From positions 124,001-188,000 of the forward strand of contig NZ_LGKN01000009.1 in NCBI RefSeq assembly GCF_001306175.1: a stretch of DNA of 64,000 nucleotides, read 5' to 3'. Below, piece after piece: positions 51,745 through 53,254 of this stretch. Position numbers and translations under genes: made by a program. The DNA is from Ardenticatena maritima. Lineage in GTDB: Bacteria; Chloroflexota; Anaerolineae; Ardenticatenales; Ardenticatenaceae. Below the pieces are notes generated by a model. The model was given only the letters and a program-made list of their open reading frames with translations. It had not been told where the DNA came from and searched no databases. Within the stretch, counting starts at the first letter, position 1. Every line of letters starts with the position of its first letter.

Positions 51745-52605
51745 ATGGCAAACATTTTGGACGGCAAAGCACTGGCTGCCCGTTTACGTGAAGAACTGAT
51801 GACCGAAGCCCAGGCGTTCATCGAAGCGACCGGGCATGTTCCCACCATTGCCATGCTTCGCGCAGGCGATGACCCCGCGCTGCTTTCACACGCCCGTTCG
51901 GTACGGCGTTCGTTTGAAAAAGCGGGGTTTGGTTTCCAGGAACACGAACTGCCCGCCGATTGTTCGCAAGCCGATTTGAGCGCCAAACTGGCTGAACTCA
52001 ACGCCGACCCGCATGTGCATGGTATTCTCATTCAAGAACCACTGCCCAACCACATTGATGAAGACGCGCTCATCCTGGCACTCGACCCGCGCAAAGACGT
52101 GGACGGTGTCCACCCGCTGAACGCGGGGCTGTTGCAACAGCAGCGTGGGCGCTACCACGTCTCTTCAACGCCGCTGGGGGGCATCGCCATTCTGGACGCC
52201 TACAACATTGACGTGAAGGGCAAGCGCGCGGTAGTGATTGGGCGGAGCAACATTGTAGGCAAACCGATGGCGCTCTTGCTCCTTCACCGCCATGCGACCG
52301 TCACCATTGCGCACAGCCGCACGCAAAATCTGGCGGCGCTTTGCCGCGAAGCGGATATCGTGTGCGCCGCTGTGGGACGGGCGGGGCTTGTCACGCGCGA
52401 CTTCATCAAGCCCGGCGCGGTGGTGATTGATTTCGGCATCAACTTTGTGGACGGCAAACTCGTGGGCGATGTCGCGTTTGATGAAGTTGCCGAAGTCGCC
52501 GGCTGGATTACGCCCGTGCCCGGTGGTACGGGACCCGTGACGTCGGTCATGTTGCTTCGCAACACACTCAACGCGGCAAAATGGTTGTTGGAAACGTCGT
52601 CGTGA
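51745..52605 (+). CDS. folD: FolD methylenetetrahydrofolate dehydrogenase/cyclohydrolase, catalytic Lys missing
   Basis: This 286-residue protein has the FolD fold: GILIQEPLPNHID, DPRKDVDGVHPLNAG, the NADP site VVIGRSNIVGKPMALLL and ITPVPGGTGPVTSVML. At the active site the Tyr-x3-Lys pair of the family (Y50/K54 in E. coli) reads His49 and Val53. The lysine is essential for the cyclohydrolase step in studied homologues, so this enzyme may have lost it. AAAGGGGG precedes the ATG. It is followed eight bases later by an acyltransferase gene. Confidence 0.88.
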   Translation: MANILDGKALAARLREELMTEAQAFIEATGHVPTIAMLRAGDDPALLSHARSVRRSFEKAGFGFQEHELPADCSQADLSAKLAELNADPHVHGILIQEPLPNHIDEDALILALDPRKDVDGVHPLNAGLLQQQRGRYHVSSTPLGGIAILDAYNIDVKGKRAVVIGRSNIVGKPMALLLLHRHATVTIAHSRTQNLAALCREADIVCAAVGRAGLVTRDFIKPGAVVIDFGINFVDGKLVGDVAFDEVAEVAGWITPVPGGTGPVTSVMLLRNTLNAAKWLLETSS

Positions 52606-52612
52606 GGGAGAT

Positions 52613-53254
52613 ATGACCGAGGAGCAAACCACATTCCCACCTTTGCCGCCGGCGCTGGAAGCGGTCCATATCGGGCGCGGCTGGCAAAAGATGGCGCAAC
52701 GCATCTTTCAAACGTTGGGCTGGCGCGTTGAAGGCACATTGCCGAACGAACCCAAGTTCGTGATTGCCGCCGCCCCGCACACAAGCAACTGGGACGGGGT
52801 GTTGCTGCTCTTAGCCGCCACGTCGCTGGGGGTGCGGCTCAACTGGATTGGCAAGCACACGCTCTTTCGCCCCCCGATTGGTTGGTTCATGCGGCGGCTG
52901 GGGGGCATTCCTGTGGACCGGCGCAAGCGGCAAAACCTTGTGGACCAGGTGGCGGCTGCGTTCGCCAAACGCACGCACATGATTCTGGTGATTGCCACCG
53001 AAGCCACACGCAAGGAAGTGCCCTACTGGCGCTCCGGCTTCTACTACATCGCTCTGAAAGCGGGCGTGCCCATTCTGCTTGCGGGCCCCGATTACCCAAC
53101 CAAGCGCATTGTGCTAGGACCGCTCATCTGGCCCAGCGGCGACATTGATGCCGACATGGAAAAAATCGCCGCCTGGTTCAACGCCAAGGGCTTGCGCGGC
53201 ATCAAAGGCAAGCCGATGAGCCCGGTGCGATTGCGCCCGCGCGATGACGCCTGA
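52613..53254 (+). CDS. PlsC-like lysophospholipid acyltransferase family protein
   Basis: This 213-residue protein has the acyltransferase motif H56-x4-D61 (HTSNWD) and the GGIPVDR motif. The usual PEGTR motif reads ATEATRK. It fits the 1-acyl-glycerol-3-phosphate acyltransferase superfamily and probably acts on lipids at the membrane face. A GAGGGAG site lies between the folD stop and the ATG, so it is co-transcribed with folD. Its precise acceptor is unknown. Confidence 0.82.
   Translation: MTEEQTTFPPLPPALEAVHIGRGWQKMAQRIFQTLGWRVEGTLPNEPKFVIAAAPHTSNWDGVLLLLAATSLGVRLNWIGKHTLFRPPIGWFMRRLGGIPVDRRKRQNLVDQVAAAFAKRTHMILVIATEATRKEVPYWRSGFYYIALKAGVPILLAGPDYPTKRIVLGPLIWPSGDIDADMEKIAAWFNAKGLRGIKGKPMSPVRLRPRDDA

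Follow-up and report, generated by a model that had tools for sequence, protein, structure and literature searches.

The window, meaning the whole analysed stretch of 64,000 nucleotides from Ardenticatena maritima, carries a folD gene whose product is predicted, from the residues at its active site, to be a dehydrogenase-only 5,10-methylene-tetrahydrofolate (methylene-THF) dehydrogenase. The gene and the active-site codons are:

51745..52605, plus strand: folD, 286 aa; open reading frame from the ATG at 51745, identified by Pfam, NCBIfam and PDB matches and by its modelled fold
51889..51891, plus strand: codon 49, His, where the FolD norm is Tyr (E. coli Tyr50), placed by alignment
51901..51903, plus strand: codon 53, Val, at the position of the cyclohydrolase lysine in bifunctional FolD (E. 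coli Lys54), placed by alignment
52033..52035, plus strand: codon 97, Gln retained (E. coli Gln98), placed by alignment
52102..52104, plus strand: codon 120, Asp retained (E. coli Asp121, folate binding), placed by alignment

The protein is a full-length FolD that is spanned by both the catalytic and the NAD(P)-binding domains in Pfam (PF00763, 111.5 bits; PF02882, 209.4 bits), and a PDB sequence search matched 27 distinct FolD/MTHFD chains. An AlphaFold2 model, built from an input of eight sequences, has a mean pLDDT of 94 and agrees with solved FolDs, including 3l07, at a TM score of ~0.95, i.e. the fold is unchanged. The top NCBIfam match reaches 330 bits, short of the cut-offs curated for the narrow models, and the top models label the protein bifunctional. 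Among named records, Ardenticatena sp. WFOS01 comes closest (95% identity). The Ardenticatena assembly (G000; 98.6% complete, 12 contigs, 3.56 Mb) contains a single FolD-family gene, and a second folD was sought in it and found to be absent.

In FolD enzymes, the lysine acts as general acid/base of the cyclohydrolase step and is positioned by the glutamine, while the aspartate binds the pterin and the tyrosine makes van der Waals contact with the substrate (PMC3338484). The original prediction that this Tyr-x3-Lys pair is missing from the methenyl-THF site and replaced by His49/Val53 was borne out by alignment against E. coli Tyr50/Lys54, in which the site reads His-x3-Val and no gaps occur across it. 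The claim that the other FolD motifs are intact also holds, as the lysine-positioning Gln97, the folate-binding Asp120 and the GRS...HSR motif of the nucleotide site are all present. Another lysine aligned at the site would have spoken against the prediction; no substitute was found in the ungapped alignments, and the closest lysines are residues 8 and 59. The bifunctional enzymes of E. coli (1b0a) and human (MTHFD1, 1a4i) share the fold, the folate-site Gln and Asp and the nucleotide motif with the window FolD, but carry Tyr-x3-Lys instead of His-x3-Val.

Two trivial explanations were rejected. A shifted register that would bring another lysine to the site is ruled out by the ungapped alignments, with residue 59 as the next lysine. 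A sequencing error or a pseudogene is ruled out because the His/Val pair is conserved family-wide, being fixed in all six Ardenticatenaceae genomes found, which represent three genera.

How far the change extends was judged from an alignment of 188 FolDs, nearly all from Chloroflexota. The lysine is kept in 62 of these sequences and absent from 126, proportions that do not equal population frequencies because sequences entered the alignment through their similarity to a lysine-less query. Its position is taken by Ile (97), Leu (17), Val (9), Gln (2) or Glu (1), and in lysine-less FolDs position 262 is mostly Thr instead of Val and position 230 mostly Phe instead of Val. Loss of Gln98 affects 15/126 lysine-less versus 2/62 lysine-bearing FolDs, and Asp121 is changed to Glu in 6/126 lysine-less proteins. 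The tyrosine is present in 182 of the 188 sequences and is replaced by His only in the six Ardenticatenaceae; relatives outside this family always have it, with the lysine either present or replaced. The homologue alignment, which the original prediction had proposed as a check, confirms the change within the family and places the loss of the lysine in a far wider group. Judged from these sequences, lysine loss is old and widespread and tyrosine loss is limited to Ardenticatenaceae. As lysine loss is common to a large Chloroflexota clade, what sets the family apart is the tyrosine loss alone, and the Tyr-to-His change is the odd part of its FolD. This change probably came after cyclohydrolase function was gone.

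The absence of the lysine is associated with the position of fchA. Standalone FchA-type genes, mostly encoding 205-250 aa, were sought by PF04961 in the same genomes as the FolDs. In a class-level Chloroflexota sample of 77 FolDs, with adjacency defined as same strand and within 400 bp, 30 of 39 lysine-less FolDs but none of 38 lysine-bearing ones are adjacent to fchA, and fchA lies upstream of folD in all 30 pairs. For a broader sample of the phylum, with a distance limit of 600 bp, the corresponding numbers are 56/86 and 0/21. Over both samples, the lysine is absent from 86/86 fchA-adjacent FolDs, and adjacency occurs in 0/59 lysine-bearing ones. Of the genomes with a lysine-less FolD, only G003 (83% complete) and G241 (74% complete) gave no FTCD_C match, whereas 25 lysine-bearing FolDs are in genomes without such a match. 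The large adjacency counts are not independent of each other, because lysine presence or absence changes only ~3-4 times on the FolD tree, and an independent-pairs test of lysine against fchA was not significant, with too few pairs.

Independent support for the link between lysine and fchA comes from other lineages, e.g. Bacillota, where seven FolDs encoded directly downstream of fchA carry a Lys-to-Ala exchange and branch apart from the Ile/Leu/Val clade in the tree. The rule has an exception in the same phylum, since at two near-identical loci (L250 and L251) a folD that keeps Tyr-x3-Lys is located beside fchA in the opposite order, just upstream of it. A Fusobacterium FolD, which entered as an outgroup from a plasmid search for FolD relatives, has Gln at the lysine position, and the same record holds an FchA-type gene of 220 aa. 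In Neomarinimicrobiota, the FTCD_C domain is found in fused proteins of FTCD length (~565 aa), and both FolDs read retain the lysine. A literature search found no paper linking the FolD lysine to FchA.

The original prediction had also reasoned that the cell would need another cyclohydrolase, to be sought as FchA or as a second folD. The former part was confirmed by an intact standalone fchA at G000:C3:455983-456525, while the latter was not, in line with the single folD noted above. The best PDB match of this FchA is the methenyl-THF cyclohydrolase 7vg4 (E 1e-53), followed by the cyclodeaminases 1o5h and 1tt9 (~1e-27), and its sole NCBIfam match is the FchA equivalog, with 244.6 bits where the cut-off is 275. 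The gene for the formate-THF ligase Fhs is located at C3:953169. The genome also contains a formiminotransferase-domain gene at G000:C4:603814-604128 (in a 330-aa open frame), which is not fused to a cyclodeaminase domain, and many relatives likewise have a stand-alone gene of this kind. Because of this gene and of a score below the NCBIfam cut-off, FchA might work as a cyclodeaminase, either as a second role or in place of the cyclohydrolase role. The formiminotransferase domain was undetected in the lysine-less genomes G008, G013, G031, G041, G048, G065, G070 and G072, all of which have fchA beside or near folD.

Within Ardenticatenaceae, folD and fchA are adjacent in G002, G004 and G005, and the gene order in G002 and G005 is fchA-folD-[~120 aa]-PAP2. 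In the two Ardenticatena genomes, G000 and G001, this adjacency is absent; the cluster reads fchA-[120 aa]-PAP2 without folD, which is found at the window locus instead. G003 (83% complete) retains folD-[120 aa]-PAP2, and fchA was sought there and not found; a repeat-rich open reading frame (L053, bases 1-606) occupies the position that fchA has in other family members. We infer that folD moved out of an fchA-folD-PAP2 cluster while fchA stayed. The ancestor would have had fchA and folD as neighbours and passed on the split of activities, and folD would later have been relocated from the cluster to the window locus in Ardenticatena. In the window, an open reading frame at 52613-53254 on the plus strand, of lysophospholipid acyltransferase type by eye, begins 8 bp past the folD stop codon, and the present-day transcript of folD may include this frame rather than fchA.

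These observations are best explained by a dehydrogenase-only FolD that works together with FchA in an inherited split of the pathway steps, a reading to which we give a probability of roughly 0.87. Because the lysine is replaced by valine, FolD is expected to keep the NAD(P)-dependent 5,10-methylene-THF dehydrogenase and to lose the methenyl-THF cyclohydrolase. Since lysine loss accompanies a separate fchA in the wider lineage, this would be an ordinary division of labour and not a defect. FolD would oxidise methylene-THF to methenyl-THF and FchA would hydrolyse methenyl-THF to 10-formyl-THF, while Fhs would connect the pathway to formate and offer a second route to 10-formyl-THF. Both activities, the dehydrogenase of FolD and the cyclohydrolase of FchA, are assigned by inference, and the absence of cyclohydrolase activity from the window FolD is proposed from the loss of the lysine and by analogy with the K54N variant discussed below. 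The dehydrogenase-only function suggested by the original prediction thus gains support from the lack of a second FolD, the intact FchA and the association of lysine loss with fchA adjacency.

It is improbable that FolD is still bifunctional, with a residue such as His49 or an arginine on the same helix taking over proton transfer from the lysine. His49 is fixed in the family and is separated from position 53 by a single helix turn, histidine can serve as an acid/base, and the helix downstream of the site is rich in arginines. The lysine-less sister lineages, however, keep the tyrosine and are without such a histidine. Lysine-less lineages also carry fchA almost without exception, and a FolD capable of both reactions would leave that gene without purpose. 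A different role altogether, outside folate metabolism, can be considered on the grounds that both members of a near-invariant Tyr/Lys pair are lost, but it is exceedingly unlikely for the sole FolD of the genome, with its Gln97, Asp120 and GRS...HSR intact and its fold unchanged. The new role that the original prediction had envisaged found no support.

There is likewise only a slim chance that a dehydrogenase-only FolD works without FchA as its partner. Methenyl-THF would then be hydrolysed spontaneously at high temperature, or Fhs would supply formyl-THF from formate, and FchA would be the formimino-THF cyclodeaminase of histidine breakdown. In E. coli mutants of K54, methenyl-THF is described as turning over spontaneously (PMC5688156), the growth optimum of A. 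maritima is 50-70 °C (PMC4653789), and the genome has both Fhs and the separate formiminotransferase-domain gene. Against this stand the closer relationship of the Ardenticatena FchA to a solved methenyl-THF cyclohydrolase than to cyclodeaminases, the operon-like folD-fchA link across the phylum and the eight lysine-less genomes that combine fchA beside or near folD with an undetected formiminotransferase domain. The partnership of FolD with FchA amounts to a known pathway that is divided naturally between two enzymes, not to a new function; what is new is the rule that ties the lysine to fchA, together with the change from Tyr to His in Ardenticatenaceae.

Work attributed to Aluri et al. (2016) is said to have found that the FolD of Clostridium perfringens is a dehydrogenase only and that FchA supplies the cyclohydrolase step. 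The combination of FolD, FchA and Fhs in this organism, to which PMC7219735 refers by a citation, is a known precedent that resembles the split proposed for Ardenticatena. C. perfringens belongs to a different lineage. The Chloroflexota type has Ile, Leu or Val at the lysine position; the window FolD has Val there and, like the other Ardenticatenaceae, also His for Tyr.

A second comparison is offered by the E. coli FolD variant K54N, in which cyclohydrolase activity is undetectable and the dehydrogenase is kept at ~19% of wild-type (PMC5688156). The same lysine is gone in both proteins, but K54N is a carolacton-resistant variant that was selected in the laboratory, grows poorly and has no FchA (PMC5688156), while in the window FolD the lysine was lost naturally, the loss is fixed and FchA is present. 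Yeast MTD1 (1edz) is described, in reference titles of PMC11064299, as a natural dehydrogenase-only, NAD-dependent member of the superfamily; it is very distant from the window FolD (E 6e-11, compared with ~1e-49 or better for the other matches).

The association suggests a simple sequence rule, by which a lysine-less FolD is expected to be dehydrogenase-only and an fchA should be sought. As the top NCBIfam models say bifunctional, many Chloroflexota pathway models credit FolD with a step that it probably cannot perform. The separate losses in Chloroflexota and Bacillota make the choice between one enzyme and two in one-carbon metabolism open to comparison, and the His/Val site of Ardenticatenaceae is a natural probe of the contribution of the tyrosine to the dehydrogenase. 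More speculatively, and on balance doubtful, lysine loss could represent repeated specialisation instead of decay, with FolD and FchA forming a partnered and perhaps channelling unit in Chloroflexota and Bacillota. A remodelled FolD pocket would hand methenyl-THF to FchA, and Ardenticatenaceae would have gone further by changing the substrate-contacting Tyr to His.

Some genomes contain more than one FolD. At L143, L149, L152, L191 and L192 (G090, G314, G137, G361 and G101, respectively), a second, divergent lysine-less FolD is encoded away from fchA, with Leu at the site and the motif YGDxSAERYVRxLQ, and each of these genomes also holds an fchA-linked FolD. Two lysine-less FolDs in opposite orientations, ~3-4 kb apart and with one fchA near, are found at L059 (G008) and L087 (G054). 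At L029/L105 (G041), the FolD match lies in an open frame of 884 aa and is listed as containing one TAA.
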